Positions 11,771-40,877 of a stretch of 43,400 bases of DNA are shown piece by piece. The position numbers and the translations under genes were made by a program. The DNA comes from Sphingobacteriaceae bacterium (GTDB taxonomy: Bacteria > Bacteroidota > Bacteroidia > B-17B0 > Aurantibacillaceae). Positions within the stretch are counted from its first letter, which is position 1. Every line of letters starts with the position of its first letter. The notes beneath the pieces were generated by a model, which saw nothing but the letters and a program-made list of their open reading frames with translations, did not search any database and had not been told where the DNA came from. The stretch covers positions 1 to 43,400 of the forward strand of contig JAHEYC010000022.1 of the NCBI GenBank assembly GCA_023251775.1, given 5' to 3'.

Positions 11771-11900
11771 TTAAGAACGCAGCTTCGGAAAAGCCTTTAG
11801 GTCTCACATCATTTTTCGAAATGGTTTAAAACCGACGGCACATACTTGATCAAAAAAAATTGATCATAATAATTCCGCAAGCGCAATAAAAAAAGGAAAA

Positions 11901-14139: not shown

Positions 14140-15527
14140 ACATCTTAAATTACAAACTATATTACTTTTTGGGTATTGGCGGCATTGGAATGAGCGCACT
14201 GGCAAGATATTTCAATCATTATGGCAAAAAAGTTTCGGGTTATGATAAAACCAAAACAGATCTTACTTCTCTATTAGAAAAAGAAGGTATTGCGTGTCAT
14301 TATGAAGAGAATATAGAATTATTACAAAAAACACTTAGTGGATATAAACCTGAAGACGTTTTGATCGTTTATACACCCGCTGTTCCCTTGGAACATAAGG
14401 AATATGTATTCTTAAAACAAAATGCTTACACAATTTTAAAACGCTCGGCTGTTTTGGGCGAGATCACCAAACAATTTAAAACAATTGCTATTGCGGGCAC
14501 TCACGGAAAAACAACAACAACAACTATGGTGTCGCACGTATTGAAGAGTAATAGCGTTAACTGCTTTGCATTCATGGGTGGAATTTCGAAGAATTACGAT
14601 ACAAATCTGTTGCTTGGTGATCCTTCAAAAACCGAAACTTACGTTGTGGTAGAAGCAGATGAATACGACAGATCTTTCTTAACTCTGCATCCGTATCTAT
14701 CTGTAATTACGAGTTGTGACGCAGATCATTTAGACATATACAAGAACCACCAATTTGTAAAAGAAGGCTACGAATTATTTGCGAATCAGATACAAAAAAA
14801 TGGTGTTTTGGTTGTTAACAAAAATGTTGATAACGAATTGCGTCTTCCCTCTAATAAGCTCATCTACTCTCTAAATTTAAATACAAATTATGTTGCTGAA
14901 AATGTGCGTTTTATAGAGAATGAAGCGCACTTTGATGTGATCAGTCCGACTGAAAATTTAACAGGTGTTTGTCTCGGAATAACAGGGATGCATAACGTTG
15001 AAAATTCACTCGCTGCAATTGCGATCGCGCAGCAACTTGGTTTAACAGGCGAACAGATAAAAAAAGCCTTACGTTCTTTTAGTGGTGTAAAACGCAGATT
15101 TGATTACAGGTTCAAATCGAGCAAAACAATTTACATTGATGATTACGCGCATCATCCCGAAGAGTTGAAAGCGACCATATCGTCAGTAAAGCGAATTTAC
15201 CCAAGCAAAAAGATCACGGGAATTTTTCAACCTCATCTTTTTAGCCGCACAAGGGATTTTGCCGATGGTTTTGCAAAGAGTTTGAGTTTGTTGGATGAAG
15301 TAATTCTGCTTGACATTTACCCCGCACGCGAACTACCGATAGAAGGTGTGACGTCGAAAATGCTTCTGGAAAAAGTAACAACATCAAATAAAAAGTTGTT
15401 GAGCAAACAGGAAGTTTTGGAACACATTCGAAAAAATGATCAGGAAGTGATCATTACTATGGGCGCAGGGGATATTGATGGATTAGTAAAACCCATCGAA
15501 GACATACTAAAAGAAAAGATCAAATAG
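14136..15527 (+). CDS. murC: UDP-N-acetylmuramate--L-alanine ligase
   Basis: YYFLGIGGIGMSALARYF, IAGTHGKTTTTTMVSHVL, EADEYDRSFL, DDYAHHPEELKATI, and FQPHLFSRT. Confidence 0.96.
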   Translation: MNILNYKLYYFLGIGGIGMSALARYFNHYGKKVSGYDKTKTDLTSLLEKEGIACHYEENIELLQKTLSGYKPEDVLIVYTPAVPLEHKEYVFLKQNAYTILKRSAVLGEITKQFKTIAIAGTHGKTTTTTMVSHVLKSNSVNCFAFMGGISKNYDTNLLLGDPSKTETYVVVEADEYDRSFLTLHPYLSVITSCDADHLDIYKNHQFVKEGYELFANQIQKNGVLVVNKNVDNELRLPSNKLIYSLNLNTNYVAENVRFIENEAHFDVISPTENLTGVCLGITGMHNVENSLAAIAIAQQLGLTGEQIKKALRSFSGVKRRFDYRFKSSKTIYIDDYAHHPEELKATISSVKRIYPSKKITGIFQPHLFSRTRDFADGFAKSLSLLDEVILLDIYPARELPIEGVTSKMLLEKVTTSNKKLLSKQEVLEHIRKNDQEVIITMGAGDIDGLVKPIEDILKEKIK

Positions 15528-15531
15528 CATT

Positions 15532-16344
15532 TTGAAAAAAATAAATTATAAAAAACTCTTTACCGCTCTCACTTGGATACTTGTTCTTTCCGGCCTTGTG
15601 ATCTCATGGTCGTTTGCCAGCGAAAAAAATCTGAACGCTAAAGTGAATCATGTTTCTGTAGAGATCATCAATCCATCCGATAACGAATTCATCAACGAAA
15701 AAGAAGTAAAGAACTTTTTTGAAGAGCGTCATGATGTTTTAGTGAATACCGAATTAAAAAATATCGACATCACCGGTTTAGAAAAAGCGCTCAATTCAAA
15801 TCCTGCCGTTGAAAATGCCGAAATATCTTACGATGTAAATGGCGATCTTAAAATTTCAGTAAAACAACGTCGCCCTTTAGTACGCGTGATCACATCAAGC
15901 GGCGAAAGTTATTATATTGATTCCCTAAGCAAACTCATGCCATTAAGTTTTAGAGCAACCGGAAGAGTTTTGGTTGCAAATGGTGCCATTTACGAATCCT
16001 ATGCTCGTCGTTACCAATATTCTGTTGATCAAATTTCGAAGAATGCATTATTCAAAAAAATAAGTGTGCTCGATGATATTTACGAGATCTCAAAACACAT
16101 TTATGCCGATTCATTATTATGCGATCTTATTCATCAAATTTATGTGACTCCTGAAAAAGAATTTGTGTTAACGCCGGTAGTTGGCGATCAATCCATTTTA
16201 CTTGGGCCAAATGAAGATCTTGAACTAAAACTCAACAAACTAAAATTATTTTACAGCGAAGGTTTGAACAAAACAGATAGCTGGAATAAATATTCAACTA
16301 TTAATTTAAAATTTAAAAACCTGGTTGTTTGCACCAAAAAATAA
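15532..16344 (+). CDS. ftsQ: Cell division protein FtsQ-like (POTRA-type)
   Basis: N-terminal TM, FtsQ/POTRA-like region (ITGLEKALNSNPAVENAEISYDVNGDLKISVKQRRPLVRV), position murC-ftsQ-ftsA. Apparent TTG start. Confidence 0.85.
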   Translation: MKKINYKKLFTALTWILVLSGLVISWSFASEKNLNAKVNHVSVEIINPSDNEFINEKEVKNFFEERHDVLVNTELKNIDITGLEKALNSNPAVENAEISYDVNGDLKISVKQRRPLVRVITSSGESYYIDSLSKLMPLSFRATGRVLVANGAIYESYARRYQYSVDQISKNALFKKISVLDDIYEISKHIYADSLLCDLIHQIYVTPEKEFVLTPVVGDQSILLGPNEDLELKLNKLKLFYSEGLNKTDSWNKYSTINLKFKNLVVCTKK

Positions 16345-16348
16345 GTCT

Positions 16349-17698
16349 ATGGAAGAAAACACAACTAATTTAGGTTCTGACCTTGTTGTAGGTCTCGACA
16401 TCGGAACCACAAAAATTGCCGCCATTGTTGGCCGTAAAAATGAACATGGTAAAATTGAGATCATGGGCATTGGCAAAACCGAATCGCTTGGTGTGAACCG
16501 TGGCGTTGTGGTAAATATTGAGCAAACTGTTGCATCAATAAAAACTGCTATTGCTATTGCCGCCGATAAGGCCAATGTGGATATCGGAGAAGTTATTGTG
16601 GGCATCGCCGGACAACATATTAAAAGCATGCAACATCGTGGCATGATCACTCGTCAATCCTTAGACGATGAAGTTAACCAAAAAGATGTGGATCAGTTGA
16701 TCGACAATATGCATCGCTTGGTAATGAATCCGGGTGAAGAAGTAATTCATGTTATTCCACAAGAATATATCATCGATAACGAAAGCGGTATCAAAAATCC
16801 AATTGGTCATGCCGGAATTCGTTTAGAAGGGAATTTCCATATCATCACCGGACAAGTAAGCGCCGTAAAAAATATTTTCAAATGCGTTAACCGTGCAGGA
16901 TTAGAGATTGTTGATCTTCACCTTGAGCCATTAGCAAGTGCTGATGCGGTGTTAAGCGATGAAGAAAAAGAAGCAGGCGTTGTATTAGTGGATATTGGTG
17001 GTGGAACAACCGATGTTGCCGTGTTTTACGATGGCATCATTCGTCATACGGCTGTAATTCCTTTTGGTGGAAATATTGTTACCGAAGATATTAAAGAAGG
17101 ATGCAGCATTATTAGATCTCAAGCAGAACAATTAAAAGTACGTTTTGGTTCGGCATTAGCGCAAGAGAATCAAGAGAACGAAATTATTTCGATTCCGGGT
17201 CTATCAGGTCGTCCGCCAAAAGAAGTGTCTGTGAAATTATTAGCGCAGATCATTCAAGCGCGTATGGAAGAAATTTTAGAATTTGTTCTGTACGAAATAA
17301 AATCATCAGGCTACGAACGCAAATTATCAGCAGGCATTGTAGTAACCGGTGGTGGATCGATGTTAAAACATTTACAACAATTGGTAATGCTTACAAGCGG
17401 AATGGATTGCCGTGTTGGTACGCCAAACAAACATTTAACCTCAGCTGATAACGAATTAAAAAATCCTTTGTACGCTACAGGTGTTGGATTAGTAATGAAA
17501 GGCATTGAGAAATACGAGCGTGAATCAAAACGCGGCTTGAACTTCAACAAACCGGAAGTTGTAGAAACAGATGCTTCAACCAGCTCAGCAACCACAGAAG
17601 CCAAAAAAATTACCAATCACTCACAGAAAAAAATAGGATCTTTTTTTGATACACTTATTACGCGCGCTAAAGATTGGATGAGCGACGACATCGAATAA
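16349..17698 (+). CDS. ftsA: Cell division protein FtsA
   Basis: VVGLDIGTTKIAAIVGRK, VVNIEQTVASIKTAI, VLVDIGGGTTDVAVF, and VVTGGGSMLKHL. ATG at 16349 is preferred over the TTG at 16325. Confidence 0.95.
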   Translation: MEENTTNLGSDLVVGLDIGTTKIAAIVGRKNEHGKIEIMGIGKTESLGVNRGVVVNIEQTVASIKTAIAIAADKANVDIGEVIVGIAGQHIKSMQHRGMITRQSLDDEVNQKDVDQLIDNMHRLVMNPGEEVIHVIPQEYIIDNESGIKNPIGHAGIRLEGNFHIITGQVSAVKNIFKCVNRAGLEIVDLHLEPLASADAVLSDEEKEAGVVLVDIGGGTTDVAVFYDGIIRHTAVIPFGGNIVTEDIKEGCSIIRSQAEQLKVRFGSALAQENQENEIISIPGLSGRPPKEVSVKLLAQIIQARMEEILEFVLYEIKSSGYERKLSAGIVVTGGGSMLKHLQQLVMLTSGMDCRVGTPNKHLTSADNELKNPLYATGVGLVMKGIEKYERESKRGLNFNKPEVVETDASTSSATTEAKKITNHSQKKIGSFFDTLITRAKDWMSDDIE

Positions 17699-17747
17699 TT
17701 AAATTATAAACTAACAAATCCCTTAATAACCTAAAACCATAACCACC

Positions 17748-19295
17748 ATGATGCAATTTGAATTACCAAACGCCGAGAGTTCGATCATAAAAGTGATCGG
17801 TGTTGGCGGCGGCGGAAGCAACGCTGTAAACCACATGTTCCTAATGGGAATAAAAGGCGTTGATTTTATCGTAGCAAATACCGATAGACAAGCCCTTGAG
17901 AAAAGTCCTGTTCATCACAAGATCCAATTAGGCAGCAATCTTACAAAAGGATTGGGCGCAGGCTCTATTCCCGATGTTGGTCGCGATGCCGCTATCGAAT
18001 CTATTGACGAGATCAGAGCATATCTCACCGAAAATACCCAAATGGTATTTATCACTACCGGTTTAGGTGGTGGAACAGGTACTGGAGCTGCTCCGGTAAT
18101 TGCAAGTATTGCACGTGAGTTGGGCATACTTACCGTTGGCATTGTTACATTACCTTTTATGTTTGAAGGTAAAAAACGTAAAACACAAGCCGATGCAGGT
18201 TTAGAAGAAATGAAAAAGTATGTTGATACACTTTTAGTGATCAGCAACGATAAATTACGCGAGATCTACGGTAATTTAAAAATGAGCGAAGCATTTGCAC
18301 ATGCCGATGATGTATTAACCGGCGCTGCAAAAAGTATTGCCGAGATCATTAGTTTACATATGCACATTAACGTTGACTTCAACGATGTGAAAACTGTAAT
18401 GAAAGATAGCGGCGTGGCCATTATGGGTAGCGCAGTTGCCAGTGGCGAAAAACGCGCCATTAAAGCAGTAGAAGGTGCATTGAATTCTCCATTATTAAAC
18501 GATAACGATATCAGTGGTGCTCGCCATGTATTATTGAATATCATGAGCGGAAGTGATGATATTGATATGGACGAATTTGGTGAGATAACCGACTTTATTC
18601 AAGAAGCTGCCGGTGGAACAGCTGAATTGATTACAGGTTATGGAACCGATGCATCCTTAGGTGATAGCGTAAGCGTTACCATTATTGCTACAGGATTTAA
18701 ATCACGCCCTTCGGCAAGTTTTGAAGCTTCCTTTTATAAAGAAAGAAAAGTGGTTGACCTTAACGAAACAAAAACAGAGGACGTAGTTGAGCCGATTAAC
18801 GAAACTAAAGAAGAAGAAGCATTTGTTTTTATTAAAGAAGAGATCACCGAAGAAAAAGAGATCAGCTTCGAGATCACTGAAACAAATTTAACGGATGAAG
18901 CAGAAAAAATAGAAGCAACAAATATTGAAGTAACCGAAACCAAAGAATTTACATTTACGGTAATGAATGAGAATACAGAAACTCCGGTAAATGACGTAAC
19001 ACAAGATCCGGTTTCTGAAACTCCGAACATTGTTGCCGAAATTTCGCGCGAAGAGCAGATCAAATTAGCTCAAGAGCGTATTCGTAAACTGAAAGAGATC
19101 ACCTTGAAAATGAAAAGTCCGGAAGGCTTAGCATCTTTAGAAAAAGAAACAGCATTCTCAAGAAAGAATATCAATTTAGAGAATAAGAACTATTCGCAGG
19201 AATCAAATGTATCTCGCTTTACCTTAAGCGAAGGCGATGATAAAAAAGTTGAGATCCGCCCGAATAATTCTTTCTTACATGATAATGTAGATTAA
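17748..19295 (+). CDS. ftsZ: Cell division protein FtsZ with long acidic C-terminal linker
   Basis: IKVIGVGGGGSNAVNHM, tubulin signature GLGGGTGTGAAPVIA, NVDFNDVKTVM. Glu/Thr-rich tail ending RPNNSFLHDNVD. Confidence 0.97.
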   Translation: MMQFELPNAESSIIKVIGVGGGGSNAVNHMFLMGIKGVDFIVANTDRQALEKSPVHHKIQLGSNLTKGLGAGSIPDVGRDAAIESIDEIRAYLTENTQMVFITTGLGGGTGTGAAPVIASIARELGILTVGIVTLPFMFEGKKRKTQADAGLEEMKKYVDTLLVISNDKLREIYGNLKMSEAFAHADDVLTGAAKSIAEIISLHMHINVDFNDVKTVMKDSGVAIMGSAVASGEKRAIKAVEGALNSPLLNDNDISGARHVLLNIMSGSDDIDMDEFGEITDFIQEAAGGTAELITGYGTDASLGDSVSVTIIATGFKSRPSASFEASFYKERKVVDLNETKTEDVVEPINETKEEEAFVFIKEEITEEKEISFEITETNLTDEAEKIEATNIEVTETKEFTFTVMNENTETPVNDVTQDPVSETPNIVAEISREEQIKLAQERIRKLKEITLKMKSPEGLASLEKETAFSRKNINLENKNYSQESNVSRFTLSEGDDKKVEIRPNNSFLHDNVD

Positions 19296-19491: not shown

Positions 19492-20040
19492 ATGGGCTTT
19501 CATTATAAAATATACAATAACGATAAACCCTATTTTATCACAACAACTATTGTTGATTGGATAAACGTTTTTGAAGAGGAAAATCAGAAACTTTTCATTG
19601 TGGAATCATTACAATACTGTCAGAAGAACAAAGGACTAAAGATATACGCTTGGTGTTTAATGCCCAACCATTTACACATGATAGCTAAAGCGACAAATGG
19701 ATATAAACTTTCGGATGTCATACGCGATTTTAAACGACATACTTCTAAGAAAATTATTGATCGGATACTTGAAGAACCAAATGATAAAGGCGAATGGATG
19801 CTTAGAGTTTTCAAGAAAACAACGTCACAAGATCCTAAATGTGTTAAATACAAAGTTTGGAAAGATGGGTATCACCCTATCGAATTATCTTCGGCTCCAT
19901 TTACATTTCAAAAACTAAATTATATTCATAACAATCCGGTTAAAGCAATGATAGTGAAAAATTCATGGGAGTATATGTATAGCTCAGCAAGAAATTATGC
20001 AAACATGGAAGGATTACTAGAAATAACAAAGATTGCTTAG
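19492..20040 (+). CDS. REP-associated tyrosine transposase (Y1_Tnp / RAYT family)
   Basis: 182 aa. HUH motif in AWCLMPNHLHMIA; candidate catalytic Tyr in LNYIHNNPVKAMIV; YSSARNY tail. Flanked by REP-like palindromes. Confidence 0.9.
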   Translation: MGFHYKIYNNDKPYFITTTIVDWINVFEEENQKLFIVESLQYCQKNKGLKIYAWCLMPNHLHMIAKATNGYKLSDVIRDFKRHTSKKIIDRILEEPNDKGEWMLRVFKKTTSQDPKCVKYKVWKDGYHPIELSSAPFTFQKLNYIHNNPVKAMIVKNSWEYMYSSARNYANMEGLLEITKIA

Positions 20041-20119: not shown

Positions 20120-23100
20120 TTATTTCGATACGATCAATTTGCTTACACGTTTAATTCCTTTTGAACTTGTTACGTTCACAATATAAACGCCATTACTAAG
20201 TTCGCTTGTATTGAAGGTGTGATCGGTATAACCATAAGTTAAATTCTTTTGAGTTTCCGACCTAACAATGCGTCCGTTAATATCCATTACGTTGATCACG
20301 ATATCTTCGTTATCGGCAGCAAAGAAATTAAGTGTAACATTTCCGTTGGTTGGATTTGGATATAATGATAAACCGGTGTTCTTCGCAATTATTTCGTGCT
20401 CCTCTATTCCAATTATACTTTGAACAAGGTAATTCTTATTCAACCATGCTCCTCTACCATTTGTAGCTACATAAATAATTCCCGAGTTGTATGAATCCCA
20501 GGTGCTTGATTTTTGTTGCTTGATGTCAAACACCTGCACGTTAGGAAGCGCCGCAGTTGGATTTGCAGCATTTTTTGCATCATTCCAAACCGGACTTGCT
20601 GCTGTAATATCATTTGTAACATATACACCTCTATCGGTACCAACTAAAACGCGTTTATTATCGGTCATTTCAAATAGCGCACAATAGATAGAACCACCAG
20701 GCAATCCGGTTCCTGTTTTACCGGTGAAAGTTACAACCGTATTATCTATATTATCAATATCCATGTTAGGAGTACTTACATAAACCTTATTAGTTGCATC
20801 CGCAGTTGTGAGCAATACAGTTTTGTTATCATCGCTTACAGCTAAGTTGGTGATCTTCTCGGCACACGTAAAAGTTAATGTTGTTCTAAATGGTGAGTTC
20901 AAATTGGTAGTAAATGTAAATGCAGTCGGAGCTGTTCTTTTTCCTGTCACACATCCTGTATAATACGCTCCTCTGTAATCATCAATTGAAAAGTCGAACA
21001 TACTTGCTTTCATATTTACTTTGTAAAGACGGTAAGCAGGACTAGGTGTTGTAACCGCTGTTACATAATAAAGGGCTTTTCCATCGGGTGCCCATTCTAA
21101 TAAATAAGGTAAACCTGTAACGGTCATTTGTCCTGCAGTATAACCTCCCGGAAGTGCAGTTGAGTTAGTTGTTAAGGCGCCGGTACAACTTACGATCTGA
21201 AATTTTTGAGGATCGTTGGTGTTCAATGGACGTTTACTAACTAACACACCTTTATCATTCAAAATTGCTAATCTAGAATTGTAATCTATTTTGTATTTAT
21301 TAGGCGCTGATGTTGAAACCGGAGCTAATGAATTTGTTCCTACGTTGGCGAATGACCAAGATGTAGCTGCAATAGTTGTTGTTTTTGCAAATTTCAAGGC
21401 CGAGATATTCTCGCTCTTAACTTCGATCGTACTTCCTGCGTTGTAACGATAAAAAACTGTAACAGCTACACGAACATATTGATGATTGGCCGTACTGGTA
21501 AGTATTGGTGTAAGTGGATTTACAGGTATCTCAAACTGGATAATATCTTTAAGATCCACAGGATCGATGGTTAATTTGTTCAAGGTATTTATTACGCCTG
21601 AAGTTAATCCCGTTAAAGTATAACTTGATGGCAGAGTTGTTGGTGAAGTTGCGCCTCCAAATTCCATTGTTGCTTTTGTATTGGTAGTGTATGATACATT
21701 ACAATTTCCAAAACACGAAGAACTTGTTGTTGTTGCAATAGCTACAGTATAAGTTGCAATTGTAACCTTATCAATAATAGCAGACGCTTGTGGCTTTATT
21801 AAACTAACTGTATAAGATGTAGGAACAGCAACAGTTGAAGGTGGAACAACTGTTATAGGGATCAAAACGCGCACCGAATCATTAAAGAATAATACCGAAT
21901 CAACAGGTGTAAATCTTTTGGGATCAGTCACAGTACCATCTACTTTTGTATTCTCCCATAATTTAAATGGTGTGCCGGTTGTTGTATATGTATTATTCAC
22001 ATAAGCCTGATCTTTTGTAGATCCGTTATTGCTAATTCCACGGAAATCAATTTGAGTGATGCTCGGATCAACTTGACATTCTGATCCAAGATGACTCACT
22101 TGCATTAATGTTGGATCGCCTGTGGTAATATCAGGCGCCACATATAAATTACTGTTTGCAGCAGTAAAGAATGCCGTTTTTGGAGATAATTTAGAATACA
22201 CAGCATTAAAGAAATCACCATTCAAATAATTTAATTCACTCGTAACTGAAGGATAATTTCCGCTAAAGAAACTTACACCATTTCCGGCAGTAGCTGCAAT
22301 GTATCCTGAGTATGGCACCAGTGAATTAGTTTGTTTTGCAGTTTTAGGGAAGCGTGTAATTTCAATACTATTGTATTGCGCTGTTCCTAATCCCGCTGAA
22401 AAGAATTGGAACGTAAGAAGATTATCCGATGATCTGTATACACCGGCATCCGTTACAAAATATGTTGAAACTACATTTCCTCCAGTGGTCGTCATTTTTA
22501 TATCGTGGATATTCTGACGCAAATAAATTGGAGAGTTAAATGCGAATTCGCTTCCATATCTCACCCAAGTTCCAATTCCTTCAGGTCCGCCTGTAGTTTT
22601 TGTCCACGTATAAAATTTATAACTTCCAATATACACTTGATCAGCATTGAATGGATTCACAACCACACAATGGGCGTAATCGCCGGCAGCCGAACTACCA
22701 CCATTTGATAAGGGATCTAATTGCGGAGAGCCTTCTACGATCAATGTCCAATTTGCACCGGCATCTTTACTCACAAAAAATCCATATAGTGTAGCAGTAG
22801 AAATATTATTTGTTGTAGTTGGTTTTGCTACTGAAGCATAAATTGTATTGGCATTTGAATACGCTATTCCCAATTCTATCCTACCATAATTCATATCAGG
22901 CAAGTTGGTTGAACTTGGTGTAATATCCACAAAACCGGTTGGACTTCCCCCTACCGATCGGTAAACCTTTGTATAGGAAAATCCGGATCCTGAATTTAAA
23001 CTACTTGTTGCAACAGCATAAATATTCCCAACATTATCATAGTAAACTGAAAGTGCTGTGGCAGTAGCCGGAATAGCACCGGTTCCATTTGCGTTAATAA

Positions 23101-23620
23101 ATGTAGTTCCTCCATCTGTTGAGATCAATAATCCCATATCACTCGCAATAGCTATTTTCTGTGCACTGTTTGGGTCGCAGGCTATTCTTGTGATCACAGA
23201 ACCTGTAACTGAAGCATCAGCTACTTGATCTAAATTACTTGTTGTTTGATTTAACTTATATAAACCCGAACCCGGAATAGATTTTGACTTGGCAGTTGCC
23301 CTTAAGAAACCTTCGCCGGTAGCTGCATATATTGTTCCATCGGCCGATTGCGCAAGGTATGACACGTTACGAACCACGTCCTGATCATTAACCGGTAACC
23401 AATTTGTACCCCCATTTGTAGACCTGAATATTCCACTGGAAACACTACCTACGTATAGCACGCTACTGTTCAATCTATCTACAACCATGTTCCTAGAGCG
23501 ACCTGCGCTTAATACGGGTCCCGCAGGCGACCAGGTATAGGTTTGAGCTTTTACCTCACTACTTAAAACAGCTGCTAAAGCTATCATTCCGGTTAACTTG
23601 TACATATTCATCATAGCCAA
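20120..23620 (-). CDS. Secreted BNR/sortilin-like beta-propeller protein with T9SS type A C-terminal sorting domain
   Basis: 1166 aa. Signal peptide. Asp-box-like repeats FRSTNGGTNWLPV, ISTDGGTTFI, VSKDAGANWTLI. C-terminus LSLYPNPTNGNVTLNF...GRIVRS...GVYIVNVTSSKGIKRVSKLIVSK. Confidence 0.87.
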   Translation of the reverse strand: MAMMNMYKLTGMIALAAVLSSEVKAQTYTWSPAGPVLSAGRSRNMVVDRLNSSVLYVGSVSSGIFRSTNGGTNWLPVNDQDVVRNVSYLAQSADGTIYAATGEGFLRATAKSKSIPGSGLYKLNQTTSNLDQVADASVTGSVITRIACDPNSAQKIAIASDMGLLISTDGGTTFINANGTGAIPATATALSVYYDNVGNIYAVATSSLNSGSGFSYTKVYRSVGGSPTGFVDITPSSTNLPDMNYGRIELGIAYSNANTIYASVAKPTTTNNISTATLYGFFVSKDAGANWTLIVEGSPQLDPLSNGGSSAAGDYAHCVVVNPFNADQVYIGSYKFYTWTKTTGGPEGIGTWVRYGSEFAFNSPIYLRQNIHDIKMTTTGGNVVSTYFVTDAGVYRSSDNLLTFQFFSAGLGTAQYNSIEITRFPKTAKQTNSLVPYSGYIAATAGNGVSFFSGNYPSVTSELNYLNGDFFNAVYSKLSPKTAFFTAANSNLYVAPDITTGDPTLMQVSHLGSECQVDPSITQIDFRGISNNGSTKDQAYVNNTYTTTGTPFKLWENTKVDGTVTDPKRFTPVDSVLFFNDSVRVLIPITVVPPSTVAVPTSYTVSLIKPQASAIIDKVTIATYTVAIATTTSSSCFGNCNVSYTTNTKATMEFGGATSPTTLPSSYTLTGLTSGVINTLNKLTIDPVDLKDIIQFEIPVNPLTPILTSTANHQYVRVAVTVFYRYNAGSTIEVKSENISALKFAKTTTIAATSWSFANVGTNSLAPVSTSAPNKYKIDYNSRLAILNDKGVLVSKRPLNTNDPQKFQIVSCTGALTTNSTALPGGYTAGQMTVTGLPYLLEWAPDGKALYYVTAVTTPSPAYRLYKVNMKASMFDFSIDDYRGAYYTGCVTGKRTAPTAFTFTTNLNSPFRTTLTFTCAEKITNLAVSDDNKTVLLTTADATNKVYVSTPNMDIDNIDNTVVTFTGKTGTGLPGGSIYCALFEMTDNKRVLVGTDRGVYVTNDITAASPVWNDAKNAANPTAALPNVQVFDIKQQKSSTWDSYNSGIIYVATNGRGAWLNKNYLVQSIIGIEEHEIIAKNTGLSLYPNPTNGNVTLNFFAADNEDIVINVMDINGRIVRSETQKNLTYGYTDHTFNTSELSNGVYIVNVTSSKGIKRVSKLIVSK

Positions 23621-26850: not shown

Positions 26851-29800
26851 TTATTTCAATAGCGTAACGTGTCCCGTTAAATGTTTTACTTTACCCGACA
26901 ATGCAGATTTAATATCGATCTTCCAAATATACACATCATCCTTACTCATTTCGCCTTTATAATAGCCATTCCAACCATTATCATGCAGGTCGTGCGTTTT
27001 GTATAATAACGCTCCCCAACGATCAAAGATCATGAAACTATATCCTTCTTCGCTATAACCTGTGATGAGGGGATGGAAGAGATCATTCAATCCATCATCA
27101 TTAGGCGTGAAGGTATTTGGAATATAGAACAACTCATCCTCGAACGAAACATATTTTGAGATCGTATCAGAGCAATACTTATTTGAAACGATCAACGATA
27201 CTAAGAATTTACCCGGATCATAGAAATTATGTGTTGGATCTTTATCTGTTGAGAATTGATCATTTTCGTTATACCAGCTATAGGTTGTTGCACCGTTACT
27301 TTGATCAAAGAATTTTATTTCCGGTTCAGTAGTACTTGCTCTATCAGGTGTAAATCTAAAATTGGCAATTGGTTTACTATATACGGTAACATAATCCGAA
27401 TAAGAACGTGTAGCGCTGCAATTATACGGCGAGGTAATACTTACACTCACATTATATACACCGGGTGTATTAAAACAAATGGTTGGACTATACAGTGTGG
27501 AAACGGTGCTGGTTATACTATTATAGAACCACCATGTATATGAATATCCCGGAATTTGATTTTGCGCTAAACTAAATGTATTGCAAACCGGATTACAACC
27601 AAAAACAGCCGGCTTATTAAGGCTCGCTATTGGCTGTGGATGAACTGTAACATTTATGGTAGAAGATATCACACAGCCTCTTGAATCGGTTGCTAAAAGC
27701 GTGTATTGCCCTGTTGTAGTTGGTGCAAGACCAATGGTTGATGAATTTACTCCACCCGGGGTCCATAAGTAAGTGTATCCGGGCGAACCACCGCTAACAG
27801 TTGACGATAAAGAGGTTTGTTGTCCTTGACATATATCTGTTATTCCACCGATCGCTAAATTTAATTTGGCAGGATCATTAAGCGCTATCACATGCGTTTT
27901 AGAACAACCATTTGCATCTGTTACTATGATCGTATAGCTTGACGCGCCTAGTCCATTTATTTGAACAGGGAATGCGATCACATTAGTTATTACAGCGCTG
28001 CTATTTACATTGGTGATCGTAAATGGTGCTTGACCACCACCAGCATTTGTTATTTGAATTATGCCATTCGTTCCACCATTACAATTTATTTGTCCAAAAA
28101 CAGAAAGCGCAGTGCTGAACATTGGTATACTGCTCACCGCAATTGTTGTGAAAACTACACAGCCGGTGTTTGGATCTGTAACTGATAATGTATAAATACC
28201 CGGAGCTGTAACATTGTATATTTGCGAAGCTGGTCCGCCAACCCATTGGAAATTCACATTGGTACTTGTTGAACTACCTGTTAATGTAACCTGCGCATTA
28301 TTACAATCCAGATCGTTTGATTTTATGGCCGCAACATTTGGCATCAACGAACTTTGATTAACTGTAATTACAGAATTACTTATACATCCGCTTATAGCAT
28401 CAGTAATTGTTACCGTATAATTTCCTGCTGCATTTACCACTGAAGGATTTAGTGCATTCACTAAACTTCCGCCATTCCACACATAATTATTGCCACCTCC
28501 TTGAGCAGTTAATGTAACAGTTGTTGCCGAACAACTAAGATCACTTGATTTTACTAGAACAGCAGTTGGTGTATTTACGATCTGCGTTACGTTAACCACA
28601 CTATTACTTGTACAACCATTTACCGGATCAAACACACTGAACGTATAACTTCCTGCACTTGCGGCAATGGCAGTAGCGGTATTTACATTTTGCGGGATCC
28701 ACGAATAAGTAACTCCACTTGTAGAAGATGAACCAATTAAAGCCACTGTAGAATTGATACACGTTAAAGTTGCAGGCGTAACAACATTGATATTTGGGAA
28801 GGCTCCGTTTTGTGTTACCGTTACAACTGTACTATTTACACATCCGTTTAAAGGATCGGTAACATTAAGCGTATAATTTCCTGCACTAATAACGATCACA
28901 TTACTTGTATTCACATTGGATGGCAACCAAGTATACGTTGCGCCGGCGTTTGTTGAATTACCATTTATAACAACTGTTGGAATTGTACATGTAATTGTAC
29001 CTCCCACCAAAGCAGAAACATTTGGCACCAAAGTATTTTGAGTAACGCTCACAACAGTATTTGATGTACAACCATTACTTGGATCAGTTACTGTTAATGA
29101 ATAATTACCAACTGAAGAAACCGAAACTGTTGAGGTGTTTAGATTCATTGGTTGCCAAGTATACGTTGCACCGGCTGCTGTGGATGTACCGGTTAAGATC
29201 ACCGAAATATTTCCACACGTTAAGGTTCCATTTACACTTGCAGAAATAGTTGGAGAAACTGTATTTTGATTCACCGTTACAACACTCGTACTAACACATC
29301 CATTAATTGGATTTGTGATCGTTAACGAATAATTTCCTGCGGCAGAAACTGATACAGTTGCATTATTCACATTCATTGGTTGCCAATTATAACTTACACC
29401 ACCCGTTGTTGAGGTACCCGTTAAAACAACCGAAGCATTGATGCAATTTAAAGTAGCCGGTATATTAATGGTGATGTTAGGCGCTACCGTATTTTGCGCG
29501 ACAACAATAACTGTAGTTGTAGAACATCCACTTATTGTATTTGTAGCTGTGGCTGAATATGAACCAATACTATTTACGGTTGCAGGATTAGTAGCGTTCA
29601 CTAACGGTCCGCCATTCCAAACAATTGTATTACCTGTGCTGTTCGCATTTAACGAAACTATACTAATAATACATGTTAAGGTATTACTTGAACTTGCCGT
29701 AATTGTTGGCACACCCGCACTTTGTATCACAGTTAAAACCGTTGTGCTTGTGCAGCCATTCACAGGATTGGTTACCGTTAACGAATAATTTCCGGCAGCT

Positions 29801-32800
29801 GATACAGAAACAGTTGGGGTATTCACATTCATTGGTTGCCAAGTATAGGTTGCGCCAACGTTGGTTGAAGTTCCGGTTAATACAACAACTGTATTCGTAC
29901 ACGTTAACGAACCACTTAAGCTTGCCGAAATATTTGGTGCTGTTGTATTTTGAGTAACTGTAACTACAGTTGTGCTTGTACAGCCATTTGCAGGATTGGT
30001 TACCGTTAACGAATAATTTCCTACAGCAGAAACAGAGACCGTTGATGTATTCACATTCATTGGTTGCCAAGAGTATGTTGCTCCACCTGTTGTTGATGTA
30101 CCGGTTAATACCACAGAAATATTTGCACAGGTTAAAGTACCACCCACACTCGCAGAAATATTTGGTGCTGTTGTGTTTTGAGAAACTGCAACCACAGTTG
30201 TGCTTGTACAACCATTTGCAGGATTAGTTACTGTTAACGAATAATTTCCTGCAGCAGAAACAGAGACCGTTGATGTATTCACATTCATTGGTTGCCATGT
30301 GTATGTTACTCCACCGGTAGTTGATGTACCGGTTAATACAACCGAACTATTTATACAGGTTAAAGTACCACCAACACTAGCTGAAATATTAGGTACCGTT
30401 GTATTTTGACTAACTGAAACTACTGTTGCGTTGGTGCAACCATTAATAGGATTTGTGACCATTAAAGAATAATTACCAACTGTGACTACCGAAACCGATG
30501 AGGTATTCGCATTCATTGGTTGCCAAGTGTAAGTTACACCTCCTGTTGTTGAAGTTCCGGTTAATACAACCGCAATAGTTGTACACGTTAATGAACCACC
30601 AACACTCGCCGAAATAGTTGGAACAATTGTATTTTGAGAAACTGCAACTACGGTTGTGTTTGTGCAACCATTAACAGGATTTGTAACTGTTAAAGAATAA
30701 TTACCAACTGCTGTTACCGAAACAGAAGATGTATTCACATTCATTGGTTGCCATGTATAAGTTACACCACCTGTTGTAGAAGTTCCGGTTAATACCACTA
30801 CGGTATTTGTACAGGTTAATGAACCGCTCACGCTTGCAGAAATATTTGGCTGAACCGTATTTTGACTTACGGCAACAACCGTGGTGCTTGTACATCCATT
30901 AATTGGATCTTTAACTACTAATGTATAATTACCTGCCGAACTAACAGACGTGCTCGCCGTTGTGACATTCTGCGGTAACCACGTATACGTTGCACCTGCA
31001 ACAGTTGATGTTCCCGAAAGCGTAACTCCTAAATTAATGCAAGTTAAAGTTCCACCGACTGAAGCAGAAATAGTTGGTGCAACTGTATTTTGCGATACAG
31101 TTACCACCGTAGAATTGATACAGCCATTTACTGGATTAGTTGTGGTTAATGTATAATTACCGGCTGTAAAAACAGAAAGTGATGACGTAGTAATATTTCC
31201 CGGTTGCCAAGTGTATGTTGCGCCGGCCGTGGTTGAAGTTCCAGTAATAATAACAGAAAGATTTGTACATGTAAGCGAACCCGGAACAGAAGCACTCACA
31301 TTTGGTATCACCGTATTTTGTACCACCGAAACAACTGCTGTATTTGTACAACCATTAACTGGATTTGTAATGTTCACTGTATAATTTCCAACTGCACTTA
31401 CGCTAACCGATGAACTATTTACATTCATTGGTTGCCAAGTAAATGTGATACCGCCAATGGTAGAAGAAGCAGCTAAGGTTGCACTTGTATTTATACAGGT
31501 CAAGGTATTGCTTACACTTGTTGTAAATGTTGGAGCCGTTGTATTTTGAGTAATTGTAAGGACTGTATTAGTAGTACATCCTTTTGAATCGGTAACAGAT
31601 ACCGTATAATTTCCCGCACTTAAATTACTTGCTGTATTACTATTTCCACCGCTTGGCGACCATGTATACGTATATCCCGGTGTTCCACCATAAGCTGTAA
31701 CGGTTGCCGAACCATTTTGCAAGCAATTACCATTCGTAATAGCCGTAACACTTACACTTAATGCTGATGTTGGTTGTGTGATACTTAAGGTGAACGTTCC
31801 CGTACAACTGTTTGCATCTTTTACATTCACTGTAAATACACCTGCAGCTAAACCGGTTTGCGAAGCGCCAATAAGATTTCCGGGCACCCATGTGTAAGTA
31901 TATGGACCAACACCACCCGTTGAAGTTATGGCAGCCGAACCTGTGCTCGCCCCAAAGCAATTTACATTTGTTTGAGAGGTAACAGAAATAGTTAAAGTTG
32001 GACACGTATTTGTACAATTAGGAACTGTTGCCATACTTACAATTGTGTAGGTAGTTCCGTTTGCGTCTTTTACTTTAATTGGAAAAACAGTTGCTGTTGG
32101 TGGACTAACAGGACTTCCTGTGGCGGTCCAAACAGAAACTTGAGTGCCTGGACATAAGAAAGTACATGTTGCAAATGGACAAGCTGAACAGTTAAGTGAT
32201 GTAGTTAAACTTGACCATACGTAAGGACCGGTTCCACCCGATACAGTTAATGAACCATTTGTTTGACAAATGTATAATGAACATGAACTAACTGTAATAA
32301 GTACAGATTCAGATCCGCACGCTAATGTGTAAACAACTGTATGCGTTCCAACCCCTGCTAACGATGGTGAAAAAACACCCGAAGCATTTACACCTGTTCC
32401 ACTCCAACTTCCACCCGGTGTAGAAACAATGAGTGTGAACGAAGGATCGGTGATACATTTTTTAGGTGGGATACAAATAGATGGATCGCAACATGTAAAA
32501 GAAATAGCAGCACAAGCACCTGCAGCAATAGATTGAATATATCCTTGTCGCGCTGCTGTGGCACTGGTACCGGTACTTCCGCAAGCAATGATATCACCCG
32601 CGGAACTAACATGCACATCGTAAACATTAAATGCAGATGAGGTAGGATAAGTTGCCAATACATTTAAATTAGCATCATATTTTATAACTTGATTTTTAGA
32701 ACCAACATACACGTTTCCGCAAGCATCAATATCTAATCCGCTATTTTGTACTGCGCTTCCTGCATATCCTCCACCCGGAATTGCTGCCGAACTAATAATT

Positions 32801-34377
32801 CCCAAGGTAGTAAGCGAACGTTTGTCAATTTGATTACCTCTGTGTGTGTAAAAGAAAGTACCGCTTGAACGAATGGCCATGATACCCGAGTTATTGTAAC
32901 GGTAATTCTCGCACTTGTATGATAAAGCATATGAATTAGATGCTTTTTTCATGGCCGAGGAATTTGGCCCGCAAATAGAAAAATTTTGATTGATGTAACC
33001 TACCGTATCGTGCGATAAAAAATAATACTTTCCATTACCACTGGCACAGATCGATCTTACCTCTTGTGTAGGAAATAAATTTGCTGTGGTCACTTGTAAA
33101 CTACTTACAACGTTCCCGGTATTCACGTCAATTTGATAAATATAAGGCAATGGTGGAATTGCGCCTCCGGTTCCTCCAACAACTAAACGCGTTTGATCGC
33201 AATTAAATGTAATGTTCCAAAATTCGGCTGATAACATTGGGCTTGGACTTGTATTATTCCAAACAAGACCACCTGCAGTATTCACCTTTATCATTTGCGC
33301 TACTGAACCTTGGGTTACATAAGAATTTCCTGCATTATCGGTTGCAAAAGTTCCAAGCCACGCTGTTGTATCATAAGGTGTGTTATAGGTCCATTGTAAA
33401 ACTCCTGCGGGATTGTATTTAAGCAATTGCATTTTATTAACGCCGCCAATAATGTAAACGTTTCCTGCACCATCTTTTTCACACTCCCATACACAATCCC
33501 AATTCGACACAAAGTTAGGAGCTTGGATCCATGGATCGATGATCACTTTTTTTGTAACATCATACGTTCCCAATTCAAAACCAACGGCTTTACCTTTCAC
33601 CACAAATTTTGAATTGATGATCTCAGCATTATTATCATCGTAAAATGTTAGGGGCGCATGATCCTTTAAATTCCCGAATTTTGTTTTTACATGTATATCT
33701 CCATCCAATTCTTTTCCAACTGTTCTATCGTAAACCATTTTTATGTGTGCAGGATCAGCACCCGGATGAAGTATGATGGCATATTTTAATCCGCCTTGCT
33801 TTGCAAAACTAAATTCTACATCAATGTTTGGATAGATCCCCTTGTAAATTATCTTTTCATAAGCCCTAATGTAATTGATGTTCCTTACACTTCCTCCGGC
33901 TAATTGGACATTGTAACTATGATAGTTGTTGGTTGGTGTGATCCCAATTAATTCCACATCATCACTTACGCCTTCCCATGTCATGTTCACAGTTTCTGTT
34001 TCATAGCGAACTCTGTTCTCTTCGGCTTCAAATGCTTTGTATTCTTCAGGACTAGAGATGCGACCTTTCATTTCTCTTTCTTTCTCTTCTTCTCTCTCTT
34101 CTTCTTCCTTATTTTTTTCAGCAGCTTTTAGAAAAGTATAGGTAATCCCTTTCTTTGTAAAATATATTTTTGTGTGGCTCTGATCAACTCCAAAAACAAT
34201 AGGACTGCTTGTACCATTTTGCGAAACGAACTGACCTCTATTCTCAATAAATGAATTACTTCCCTGAAATTTTTTATTCCAAGTGTACTCATTTGAGTTA
34301 GTTTGAGCGGTAAGTTCCCTGGTAATTGACCCAAGCAACATTAGTATCAAAGCCTTGCAAAAAAACCGCATTTTCAT
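26851..34377 (-). CDS. Giant cell-surface repeat protein with gliding-motility-associated C-terminal (CHU_C, T9SS type B-like) domain
   Basis: 2508 aa. Signal peptide. N-terminal ENRGQF domain and propeller-like region. SprB-like repeats (VNCFGASTGSAAITSTGGVGPYTYTW). 15 tandem 75/76-aa Ig-like modules. PKD-like modules. C-terminus FYIPNTFTPNDDGLNDLFHP...FMIFDRWGALLYKT...GWNGYYKGEM...VYIWKID. Confidence 0.9.
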   Translation of the reverse strand: MKMRFFCKALILMLLGSITRELTAQTNSNEYTWNKKFQGSNSFIENRGQFVSQNGTSSPIVFGVDQSHTKIYFTKKGITYTFLKAAEKNKEEEEREEEKEREMKGRISSPEEYKAFEAEENRVRYETETVNMTWEGVSDDVELIGITPTNNYHSYNVQLAGGSVRNINYIRAYEKIIYKGIYPNIDVEFSFAKQGGLKYAIILHPGADPAHIKMVYDRTVGKELDGDIHVKTKFGNLKDHAPLTFYDDNNAEIINSKFVVKGKAVGFELGTYDVTKKVIIDPWIQAPNFVSNWDCVWECEKDGAGNVYIIGGVNKMQLLKYNPAGVLQWTYNTPYDTTAWLGTFATDNAGNSYVTQGSVAQMIKVNTAGGLVWNNTSPSPMLSAEFWNITFNCDQTRLVVGGTGGAIPPLPYIYQIDVNTGNVVSSLQVTTANLFPTQEVRSICASGNGKYYFLSHDTVGYINQNFSICGPNSSAMKKASNSYALSYKCENYRYNNSGIMAIRSSGTFFYTHRGNQIDKRSLTTLGIISSAAIPGGGYAGSAVQNSGLDIDACGNVYVGSKNQVIKYDANLNVLATYPTSSAFNVYDVHVSSAGDIIACGSTGTSATAARQGYIQSIAAGACAAISFTCCDPSICIPPKKCITDPSFTLIVSTPGGSWSGTGVNASGVFSPSLAGVGTHTVVYTLACGSESVLITVSSCSLYICQTNGSLTVSGGTGPYVWSSLTTSLNCSACPFATCTFLCPGTQVSVWTATGSPVSPPTATVFPIKVKDANGTTYTIVSMATVPNCTNTCPTLTISVTSQTNVNCFGASTGSAAITSTGGVGPYTYTWVPGNLIGASQTGLAAGVFTVNVKDANSCTGTFTLSITQPTSALSVSVTAITNGNCLQNGSATVTAYGGTPGYTYTWSPSGGNSNTASNLSAGNYTVSVTDSKGCTTNTVLTITQNTTAPTFTTSVSNTLTCINTSATLAASSTIGGITFTWQPMNVNSSSVSVSAVGNYTVNITNPVNGCTNTAVVSVVQNTVIPNVSASVPGSLTCTNLSVIITGTSTTAGATYTWQPGNITTSSLSVFTAGNYTLTTTNPVNGCINSTVVTVSQNTVAPTISASVGGTLTCINLGVTLSGTSTVAGATYTWLPQNVTTASTSVSSAGNYTLVVKDPINGCTSTTVVAVSQNTVQPNISASVSGSLTCTNTVVVLTGTSTTGGVTYTWQPMNVNTSSVSVTAVGNYSLTVTNPVNGCTNTTVVAVSQNTIVPTISASVGGSLTCTTIAVVLTGTSTTGGVTYTWQPMNANTSSVSVVTVGNYSLMVTNPINGCTNATVVSVSQNTTVPNISASVGGTLTCINSSVVLTGTSTTGGVTYTWQPMNVNTSTVSVSAAGNYSLTVTNPANGCTSTTVVAVSQNTTAPNISASVGGTLTCANISVVLTGTSTTGGATYSWQPMNVNTSTVSVSAVGNYSLTVTNPANGCTSTTVVTVTQNTTAPNISASLSGSLTCTNTVVVLTGTSTNVGATYTWQPMNVNTPTVSVSAAGNYSLTVTNPVNGCTSTTVLTVIQSAGVPTITASSSNTLTCIISIVSLNANSTGNTIVWNGGPLVNATNPATVNSIGSYSATATNTISGCSTTTVIVVAQNTVAPNITINIPATLNCINASVVLTGTSTTGGVSYNWQPMNVNNATVSVSAAGNYSLTITNPINGCVSTSVVTVNQNTVSPTISASVNGTLTCGNISVILTGTSTAAGATYTWQPMNLNTSTVSVSSVGNYSLTVTDPSNGCTSNTVVSVTQNTLVPNVSALVGGTITCTIPTVVINGNSTNAGATYTWLPSNVNTSNVIVISAGNYTLNVTDPLNGCVNSTVVTVTQNGAFPNINVVTPATLTCINSTVALIGSSSTSGVTYSWIPQNVNTATAIAASAGSYTFSVFDPVNGCTSNSVVNVTQIVNTPTAVLVKSSDLSCSATTVTLTAQGGGNNYVWNGGSLVNALNPSVVNAAGNYTVTITDAISGCISNSVITVNQSSLMPNVAAIKSNDLDCNNAQVTLTGSSTSTNVNFQWVGGPASQIYNVTAPGIYTLSVTDPNTGCVVFTTIAVSSIPMFSTALSVFGQINCNGGTNGIIQITNAGGGQAPFTITNVNSSAVITNVIAFPVQINGLGASSYTIIVTDANGCSKTHVIALNDPAKLNLAIGGITDICQGQQTSLSSTVSGGSPGYTYLWTPGGVNSSTIGLAPTTTGQYTLLATDSRGCVISSTINVTVHPQPIASLNKPAVFGCNPVCNTFSLAQNQIPGYSYTWWFYNSITSTVSTLYSPTICFNTPGVYNVSVSITSPYNCSATRSYSDYVTVYSKPIANFRFTPDRASTTEPEIKFFDQSNGATTYSWYNENDQFSTDKDPTHNFYDPGKFLVSLIVSNKYCSDTISKYVSFEDELFYIPNTFTPNDDGLNDLFHPLITGYSEEGYSFMIFDRWGALLYKTHDLHDNGWNGYYKGEMSKDDVYIWKIDIKSALSGKVKHLTGHVTLLK
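28126..31542 (-). repeat. Tandem array of 15 modules of 228 bp (76 aa; the last 75 aa) inside the giant surface protein
   Basis: Consensus TTxPNISASVGGTLTCxNxxVVLTGTSTTGGVTYTWQPMNVNTSTVSVSAxGNYSLTVTNPxNGCTSTTVVxVSQN. Register checked in DNA at 31314 (unit 2 start) and 28350 (unit 15 start); two conserved Cys per module. Confidence 0.93.
34071..34110. repeat. 40-nt uninterrupted polypyrimidine/polypurine tract
   Basis: tttctctttctttctcttcttctctctcttcttcttcctt contains only C and T. It encodes an E/R/K-rich stretch (KEEEEREEEKERE) near the N-terminus of the giant protein. Confidence 0.9.
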
Positions 34378-38507: not shown

Positions 38508-40799
38508 TTATTGCTTAATAACACGTGTTGCTGTTGTTTTACCATTATTCACAACACTTACAAAATAAACTCCTGCATTATATCCCGAAAGATCAATGCG
38601 CTCATCCAATAAATTTACTTTATTGTAGGTAGTTTGTTTTATCACTTTGCCCAATACATCGGTAATGATCACTTCTGTTTTTGAATCGCTTGATAAAGAA
38701 GCAACTTTTAATTGGAACTCATTTGCGAATGGATTTGGAAGGATCTTCACACCAAAATTATTGCAAGCCGATACATCGCGCAATCCTGCACCAGGTGCAT
38801 TCGAGATCTCAAAATTTGGTTGATTGATATCGAAAAAAATATTTCCAATAGATTCAATTTTGATGCGACATGTTGAAATAACTGTGGTTACTGTTGGAAT
38901 AGTTATTAATTCGCTGCCATCATTTGTTGTATTTGCCACAAGTGTTGTGAATGTATTTCCCGAATTATACGAGATCAAGATATTTATGCTCGCACAACTA
39001 ACCGGAGCCATATTAGTATTATTTACATTCCATGTAATGGTTTGTTGTCCGCCCGAAGGCCAAACAATTCCAACTGCATTTGGATACGTAATATCAAACG
39101 GACCAACACCTGCAACCGTTGTAACAGAACATTGCTGATAACAAACTCCACCGCCTGTCATTTTATTATCGCGCGCGGTTAATCTAAAATTCAACGATTG
39201 AGCATTTGTTGGAATATACTCGCCAATTAATGTTTGATATTGACCGCTTAATGCTTGACTTTGTGGTGGGAACATACGATTTCCGGAAGCAACCGGAACA
39301 TACGAACGGAAAAATGGTTTTATACCCGAATTCCAATTACCCGCTGCAGGACCTGCATCACGCTCTTCCCACGAAAAAGTTAGAGGATCACCATTAGGAT
39401 CGGAACCGCTACCTGTTAACGTAAATGCTGTGTTCACAGGGATATTATAATTAGTTAAAGCATTAACTACCGGAGGTTGATTACCTGTAGTTGTTGTAAC
39501 CGCACACGCATTTCCTCCACCAGTTTGAGTAAAATTCACGATCTCATCATAACTGGTTGCATGAAAATAGGCGATACTATTTCCCGCGATATTTTGTGAA
39601 CCGCAAATTCCTGCATAACCCATAATAGTAATTCCACTTCCAGGTTCAACCGAAGTTCCTGCATTACGATTTCCACTGCAACTTCCTGCACCGGATGATG
39701 CATTGAATGTGTGATTTCCCGAGAATTGATGTCCCATTTCATGCGCCACATAATCCACATCGTATGGATCTCCAACAGGACTTGGACTACCTGTAATTCC
39801 TCTTGCTTTATTTCCGGCACTGCAAACACACCCTAAATTTGCTAATCCGCCACCACCTGTACTGAATGTATGGCCAATATCAAAATTTGCTGTTCCAATT
39901 GTTGCTGTAATAACAGTTTGACTTTCGTTAATTAAAGTATTTGCATTATTGTTTCCCGCAAATGGATCGGTTCCGGCATTTGTAAAAATAACATTGGTCT
40001 CTGTTGCAACTAAAACCATACGTACTGCTACTTCTGTTTGATAAATGCCTGTTACGCGATTGATGGATGTAACAATTTTTGCTAATGTTTGCGCATTTGT
40101 TGGTGTTGCCGAACCTGTTGCTGCCACTGCATATTCGCCTGTACATGCAACTGCTAAACGATACGTGCGTAAGTTAGCCCCCACGCACGCCGCCGGTGGC
40201 ATTAGTGCTGCGCTTTGCAGACTTGTTACGTTTTCTTTTTTTTTCGGTTGTTGATCGCTGCCTTCTAATCCAACTTCCTGAGATCTGTCTTGCTCAGGCT
40301 TAACAAAATCTGCGGTATAATATGTAATATAATCAGCTGTATTTTGCAAACAATACGGATCAATAAAAAAATCACCATTGATGCTGCGGATCATTCCATG
40401 AAAACCAAATTCGTTCACATCAATTTTTCCGTTCGCATACACATCGGTGATGCCTTTTATAGAATACGTTTTAATATCAGGATAAGCCGCAGCTAAAGCA
40501 GGCTCCATGATAGGCGACTCTACAACTTTAAATAATTGCATTTGTCCATTTGGAGCAGGTAAGGTAATGATGCAATTACTATTATTAATAAGCGTAGAAT
40601 TTTCATGAGGCGCAGTTGCCAATTGCGCTTTTAAATTCGTTAAGTTCAAATTATATACAAGGTATTTAGTTGGTACGATCTGACGTTTACCATTGAGTGC
40701 AACATCTTTATCTGTGCTCGCGCTCCAATGATTCTCTCCACTTTGAGCATTTGTTCCCAAACAGAATACTAAAGCAATAGCAGGTAAAATTAATTTCAT
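38508..40799 (-). CDS. Secreted reprolysin-like (M12B-type) zinc metalloprotease with T9SS type A sorting domain
   Basis: Signal peptide MKLILPAIALVFCLGTNAQ (ATG at 40799 preferred over the upstream ORF start). Zinc motif HEMGHQFSGNHTF, Met-turn ITIMGYAGICG, C-terminus VKILPNPFANEFQLKV...GVYFVSVVNNGKTTATRVIKQ. Confidence 0.9.
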   Translation of the reverse strand: MKLILPAIALVFCLGTNAQSGENHWSASTDKDVALNGKRQIVPTKYLVYNLNLTNLKAQLATAPHENSTLINNSNCIITLPAPNGQMQLFKVVESPIMEPALAAAYPDIKTYSIKGITDVYANGKIDVNEFGFHGMIRSINGDFFIDPYCLQNTADYITYYTADFVKPEQDRSQEVGLEGSDQQPKKKENVTSLQSAALMPPAACVGANLRTYRLAVACTGEYAVAATGSATPTNAQTLAKIVTSINRVTGIYQTEVAVRMVLVATETNVIFTNAGTDPFAGNNNANTLINESQTVITATIGTANFDIGHTFSTGGGGLANLGCVCSAGNKARGITGSPSPVGDPYDVDYVAHEMGHQFSGNHTFNASSGAGSCSGNRNAGTSVEPGSGITIMGYAGICGSQNIAGNSIAYFHATSYDEIVNFTQTGGGNACAVTTTTGNQPPVVNALTNYNIPVNTAFTLTGSGSDPNGDPLTFSWEERDAGPAAGNWNSGIKPFFRSYVPVASGNRMFPPQSQALSGQYQTLIGEYIPTNAQSLNFRLTARDNKMTGGGVCYQQCSVTTVAGVGPFDITYPNAVGIVWPSGGQQTITWNVNNTNMAPVSCASINILISYNSGNTFTTLVANTTNDGSELITIPTVTTVISTCRIKIESIGNIFFDINQPNFEISNAPGAGLRDVSACNNFGVKILPNPFANEFQLKVASLSSDSKTEVIITDVLGKVIKQTTYNKVNLLDERIDLSGYNAGVYFVSVVNNGKTTATRVIKQ

Positions 40800-40877
40800 T
40801 TGATAGGTTTTTAGTATTTCAAATATACAAAAACTAAGTTCTTGTAGCAAATAAAAGGGCGCTTAATTGTTTAGAAT

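Follow-up and report, generated by a model that had tools for sequence, protein, structure and literature searches.

The closest solved relative of the modules described here is GhpA, grappling hook protein A of Aureispira sp. CCB-QB1, a heptameric protein of 5898 amino acids (aa) (PMC13319060). For other proteins, SprF-GldK, experiments have shown that gliding and secretion in Bacteroidota make use of disulfides (PMC12635249). A literature search turned up nothing on module-to-module disulfides in SprB or GhpA; the primary GhpA paper lay outside its coverage, so this absence proves little. Here we analyse a stretch of contig JAHEYC010000022.1 from a Sphingobacteriaceae bacterium (assembly GCA_023251775.1), 43,400 nucleotides (nt) long and called the window throughout, which encodes a secreted protein carrying a tandem array of 15 immunoglobulin (Ig)-like modules, each with one conserved cysteine at position 16 (C16) and another at about position 65 (C65). 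We propose, with a probability of about 0.83, that the rod of this protein contains a disulfide chain in which C16 of one module (n) bonds C65 of the next (n+1), so that two covalent links would cross every junction.

A first-pass annotation of the window had described 15 modules at 28126-31542, 76 aa long with one of 75 and with paired cysteines in each, and this description was exact. The array covers residues 946-2084 of the protein and consists of 14 modules of 76 aa and a last one, module 15, of 75 aa. First cysteines follow each other at residues 961, 1037 and so on to 2025, with a spacing of exactly 76 found 14 times, and in all 15 modules a second cysteine follows 49 residues after the first (48 in the last module). 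The same annotation had read the pair as a disulfide within each module. This is probably wrong: couplings and strand order, an indirect measure, make the two cysteines distant, and the polarity of lone cysteines at the chain ends fits C16(n)-C65(n+1).

AlphaFold2 modelling of modules 6-8 from a 100-row alignment gave a mean predicted local distance difference test score of 96.9, with strands A' 12-14, B 21-26, C 33-37, 45-48, F 52-59 and G 66-75 in Ig-like order. The predicted template modelling score of this three-module model, 0.80, suggests a defined packing between modules, and a model of the preceding SprB-like pair with module 1 had the same strand order. A Foldseek search returned GhpA fragments as all of its best seven PDB matches (9flp, 9flw and others; E 1.6e-10 to 8e-10), and the profile match to GhpA reached E 4e-137. 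The Ig-like fold anticipated from the sequence is therefore borne out by both the model and its best structural matches. Matches to CEACAM and titin reflect generic Ig resemblance and were set aside.

Direct coupling analysis on 982 distinct modules located the cysteines within this fold. Couplings 55-70 and 53-72 describe an F-G hairpin with its turn near 62-63, which places C65 at the F-G turn, and the B-C loop is brought up against that turn by couplings 28-60 and 32-63. Couplings 14-73, 14-75, 15-75 and 11-71 align A' in parallel with the distal end of G, so that C16 lies close to residue 76 and some ten strand residues, or roughly 30 Å, away from C65. Couplings and predicted strands together thus set the two cysteines at opposite module ends, C16 at the bottom in the A'-B loop and C65 at the top in the F-G turn.

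The strongest coupling in the family, 17-50, belongs to an extra cysteine pair of SprB-type modules. Both members of this pair (a second cysteine before the Trp and the cysteine in LCAG) are present in 59 modules, the first alone in 29, the second alone in 0 and neither in 515 (p 4e-60). Because this pair covaries so strongly, disulfides very probably form in this module family. The coupling indicates that a C17-C50 disulfide would connect two loops at the module bottom, A'-B and E-F. The SprB-type modules of two loci of this genome, G000 (L132, on contig C119, and L133, on contig C43), and of phylum-wide loci often carry the C17/C50 pair, whose two members tend to come and go together.

A chain of C16(n)-C65(n+1) bonds has no use for C65 in its first module or for C16 in its last. 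We scored 2135 modules from 185 open reading frames (ORFs), among them 1686 internal, 197 first and 197 last modules; the sequences are related, and the p values overstate their independence. Both cysteines are present in 1670 of the 1686 internal modules and the number of cysteines per module is even in 92%, but co-occurrence within a module is uninformative because both are nearly always there. The ends of the chains are distinctive. C65 stands alone in 99 of 197 last modules versus 12 of 1686 internal ones (p 2e-94), and C16 stands alone in 39 of 197 first modules versus 3 of 1686 (p 1e-36); the reverse polarity was seen in 9 last modules (C16 only) and 9 first modules (C65 only). Where a module abuts the CHU_C domain, C65 is alone in 85 of 90 cases (27/29 in this genome, 26/28 in its family and 32/33 on phylum-wide contigs), and C16 is present in 85 of 85 penultimate modules. 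Four CHU_C-abutting modules do have C16, and each of these is accompanied by one more downstream cysteine, three in the linker and one in CHU_C. Coupling across adjacent modules is highest for the proposed block, with a mean z of 0.50 versus 0.23 and -0.03. Terminal modules are of two or more sequence types, which differ in having or lacking a C-x-x-C loop. This motif, in the loop after the Trp, occurs in about one-fifth of them (for example in L155, L113, L086 and L065) and looks like a distinct type of end cap.

As judged from its sequence, the window protein follows both end rules. At the chain start, C704 occupies the C16 position of a module that has NGT at its own C65 position; at the chain end, C2402 occupies the C65 position of a module that has no C16. 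In all, the protein has 21 C16 and 21 C65 residues. Its features, from the N terminus to the C terminus, are as follows.

26851..34377, minus strand: coding sequence of the entire secreted type IX secretion system (T9SS) type-B protein, 2508 aa, ATG start.
34303..34377, minus strand: probable Sec signal peptide, residues ~1-25, MKMRFFCKALILMLLGSITRELTAQ, typical in sequence by eye.
33529..34251, minus strand: DUF7948 domain, residues 43-283 (PF25778, E 3.4e-44).
32023..32289, minus strand: first module of the proposed chain, residues ~697-785 with C704, assigned from sequence with an approximate boundary.
31768..31995, minus strand: SprB-like module 1, C807 and C858 (PF13573 E 9.4e-17 over both modules; AlphaFold2 model).
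31543..31767, minus strand: SprB-like module 2, C885 and C934 (PF13573 match jointly with module 1; AlphaFold2 model).
28126..31542, minus strand: the array of 15 Ig-like modules, identified by cysteine spacing and alignment and by the AlphaFold2 model of modules 6-8.
29491..29718, minus strand: module 9 of the array, B-type (VWNGGxLVNAxNP), with -2/+2 indels around W36 and a counterpart module in the relative G011/L060.
28351..28578, minus strand: module 14 of the array, B-type, resembling module 9.
28126..28350, minus strand: module 15, the array end, 75 aa, grouping with the last module of G011.
27868..28125, minus strand: SprB-like module C-terminal of the array, C2099 and C2158.
27637..27867, minus strand: Ig_7/SprB-like module, C2183 and C2235.
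27385..27636, minus strand: PKD/SprB-like module with four cysteines, C2261, C2265, C2301 and C2320.
27154..27384, minus strand: terminal PKD-like module with only C2402, at the C65 position.
26854..27123, minus strand: CHU_C / T9SS type-B sorting domain, residues 2419-2508, no cysteine (PF13585 and TIGR04131).

Between DUF7948 and the SprB-like modules lies a cysteine-containing region without a Pfam match, and a hidden Markov model (HMM) of the module did not detect the module at residues ~697-785. In the four-cysteine module, the positions of C2265 and C2301 fit an extra within-module pair. The flanks had been described as SprB-like and PKD-like and the end as CHU_C. SprB-like flanks (PF13573, E 9e-17) are clear, with flanking modules scoring 60.8 and 35.5 bits against a cut-off of 28, as is the CHU_C end, where CHU_C and TIGR04131 score 46.2 bits (cut-off 27) and 53.2 bits (cut-off 35). 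A PKD-like match (PF18911) is present on the terminal module but weak, at E 6e-4 and below the cut-off. An ORF of 175 aa at 29684-30211 (minus strand), lying within the repeats in a shifted frame, is an artefact of repeat composition.

In the proposed chain the shaft would be built as a rod from about 22 Ig-like modules, of which the array supplies 15. C16(n) and C65(n+1), which in the array are 125 residues apart (124 once), would bond across the junction, so that the peptide linker and one disulfide would both span it; C65 would be missing from the first module and C16 from the last. Under tension, the shortest covalent route would then run through about 28 residues per two modules, and such a short route would make the rod stiff and nearly inextensible. 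A single proteolytic cut between modules would not sever it. We expect a PorP/SprF-type partner to hold the CHU_C end at the outer membrane, with the N-terminal region carried away from that end, and we infer that the protein serves as a rigid adhesin shaft or tether. VKOR, looked for as a candidate disulfide oxidase, was not found.

Several points weigh against this chain. Coupling between modules is swamped by duplication and favours the proposed contact weakly. Both cysteines are present in 88 of 117 first modules that have at least 150 aa upstream, which requires undetected upstream partners. An internal module that loses C16 is usually followed by one that keeps C65, leaving one unpaired cysteine, an observation that does not tell the models apart. 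Terminal modules belong to another sequence type (PKD-like), and shared descent inflates the p values. Finally, the opposite placement of the cysteines comes from couplings and strand order rather than from an S-S distance.

One alternative is the within-module disulfide, in which C16-C65 closes each module and staples the A' and G edge strands. It predicts the near-constant cysteine pair of internal modules and the even cysteine numbers, as does the chain of C16(n)-C65(n+1) bonds. However, the F-G and A'-G pairings put its two cysteines at opposite ends of the module, and it leaves unexplained the lone C65 of terminal modules before CHU_C, the lone C16 of many first modules and the fixed polarity; we regard it as quite unlikely. 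Links between neighbouring protein chains, as between strands of a bundle, rather than between modules of one chain, would be in keeping with the heptameric assembly of GhpA (PMC13319060) but predict neither the opposite half-pairs at the two chain ends nor the 21/21 balance within one chain, and are very unlikely. A bond from C65(n) to C16(n+1), which lies 27 residues further along on the other side of the same linker, would be local in sequence and also join neighbours but is favoured by no tool result and is barely credible, as it predicts C65-only first and C16-only last modules where the opposite is seen (99 vs 9 for last modules, 39 vs 9 for first ones) and would have to span, to judge from the couplings, about a module length or more.

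We also lean towards a broader form of the C16(n)-C65(n+1) proposal: that across the phylum, Bacteroidota T9SS rods made of Ig_7/SprB/PKD-like modules share this polar plan, with dedicated start and end modules, so that duplication or swapping of modules would leave no cysteine unpaired. No account of such a plan turned up in the literature searched. The arrays were found throughout the Bacteroidota sampled: the module profile matches 86 of 87 genomes of the same family, and relatives occur in Saprospiraceae, Flavobacteriales, Bacteroidales and others. Related loci were searched with seven close modules as query, all 15 being too diverse.

The array modules are divergent relatives of SprB repeats. 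All 15 score below the Pfam and NCBIfam cut-offs, in line with the suggestion that the module may not be described separately from the SprB/PKD families, and PF13573 (SprB repeat) matches none of them even at E 10. The nearest curated family by modules matched is Ig_7 (PF19081), with 8 of 15 modules, a best E of 0.015 and no score that reaches the gathering threshold (27.3 bits, against 15.6 for the reference module). Profile-profile alignment with hhalign nevertheless related the modules to SprB repeats of the same genome (probability 98.1 over 55 columns), and an iterated HMM merged the two.

The first-pass annotation had stressed the strictly fixed module length. Within this array the length is truly kept even through indels, since modules 9 and 14 carry a 2-residue deletion before the invariant W36 and a compensating 2-residue insertion after it and remain at 76 aa; pairwise amino-acid identity meanwhile averages 50% (range 16-89%). 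The 76-aa pitch also reaches one module further upstream, into the SprB-like module (C885 to C961, C934 to C1010). As a rule for the family it does not hold: related arrays have pitches of 70, 72, 75, 76, 77, 79 or 84 aa, some very regular, and the closest array (G011 = L060, 2389 aa with a different N terminus) mixes 74, 76, 78 and 79 aa. The strictly fixed length is thus local to the window array. In another relative (L089, ORF at 7104) the pitch alternates 74/76 over many modules, suggesting a two-module duplication unit.

In a tree of 62 modules, window module 9 grouped with module 7 of G011, 13 with 10 and 15 with 12, whereas modules 3-8, 10 and 11 formed an unresolved group untied to any single relative module. 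The neighbouring modules 6 and 7 are 89% identical in DNA. The simplest reading would be a few old landmark modules with recent tandem duplication between them, the central modules looking like lineage-specific duplicates. The longest exact DNA repeat is 46 nt, and the copy number is therefore unlikely to be an artefact of assembly collapse. Selection for 76 aa as a register, for example for lateral packing of rods, would accord with the compensated indels of modules 9 and 14 and with several other near-constant arrays (70 or 72 aa), but the mixed lengths of the nearest array count against it, and the grouping and the high DNA identity show that recent duplication suffices to account for the fixed length; we consider it rather unlikely.

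The surface rod envisaged in the first-pass annotation fits a secreted T9SS type-B protein, given its CHU_C/TIGR04131 end and SprA in the genome (SprA_N, E 7e-158). The genome (3.6 Mb) holds 20 PorP/SprF-family matches, 19 over the cut-off, and dozens of CHU_C proteins, a large type-B T9SS repertoire. TIGR03519, the SprF/PorP-type partner, has no match on the contig of the window, hence none beside the gene; a GldJ-like protein in the genome matches below the cut-off, and the gliding role suggested in the first-pass annotation is uncertain. Elsewhere in the window are the following features.

3756-19295, plus strand: cell-wall/division cluster, complete by appearance (MraZ, RsmH, FtsI, MurE, MraY, MurD, FtsW, MurG, MurC, FtsQ, FtsA, FtsZ).
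19492-20040: transposase-like protein of the REP-associated type, after that cluster.
20120-23620 and 38508-40850, minus strand: two large proteins with apparent type-A T9SS tails, by appearance one sortilin-like and one metalloprotease-like (AHEMGHQFSGNHTF).

The interest of this locus lies more in what is apparently a phylum-wide, polar module-to-module disulfide chain than in the fixed length. If correct, such a chain would explain the abundance of conserved cysteines in these proteins, the lone cysteine of the last module before CHU_C and how very long adhesins could bear load outside the cell. It would also mean that one module predicted or expressed alone has two unpaired cysteines.

Compared with known systems, the array modules share with the SprB repeat (PF13573) a length class, two conserved cysteines, W36, the GxYxxxVTDxxGC motif and the modelled strand order, and SprB-like modules stand on both flanks; neither the CNGS/GGTPPY signature nor the extra C17-C50 pair of many SprB repeats is found in them. 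With Ig_7 (Ig-like domain CHU_C associated) they share the same protein context. GhpA has the same tandem-module fold, an alignable CHU_C-like end and matching cysteine positions in the stretches compared, but the whole-model TM score is only about 0.5, so domain angles differ, and a predatory hook function is not implied for the window protein. Two other rods offer a mechanical parallel. RrgB, an isopeptide-linked Ig pilin, is likewise a tandem Ig rod hardened by extra links, but its bonds are Lys-Asn and lie inside a domain (PMC3132780), whereas the window protein would have disulfides between domains. The MpAFP extender adhesin is likewise a tandem Ig rod with extra rigidification, provided there by Ca2+ (PMC4083281) and in the window protein by the proposed disulfide between successive domains.

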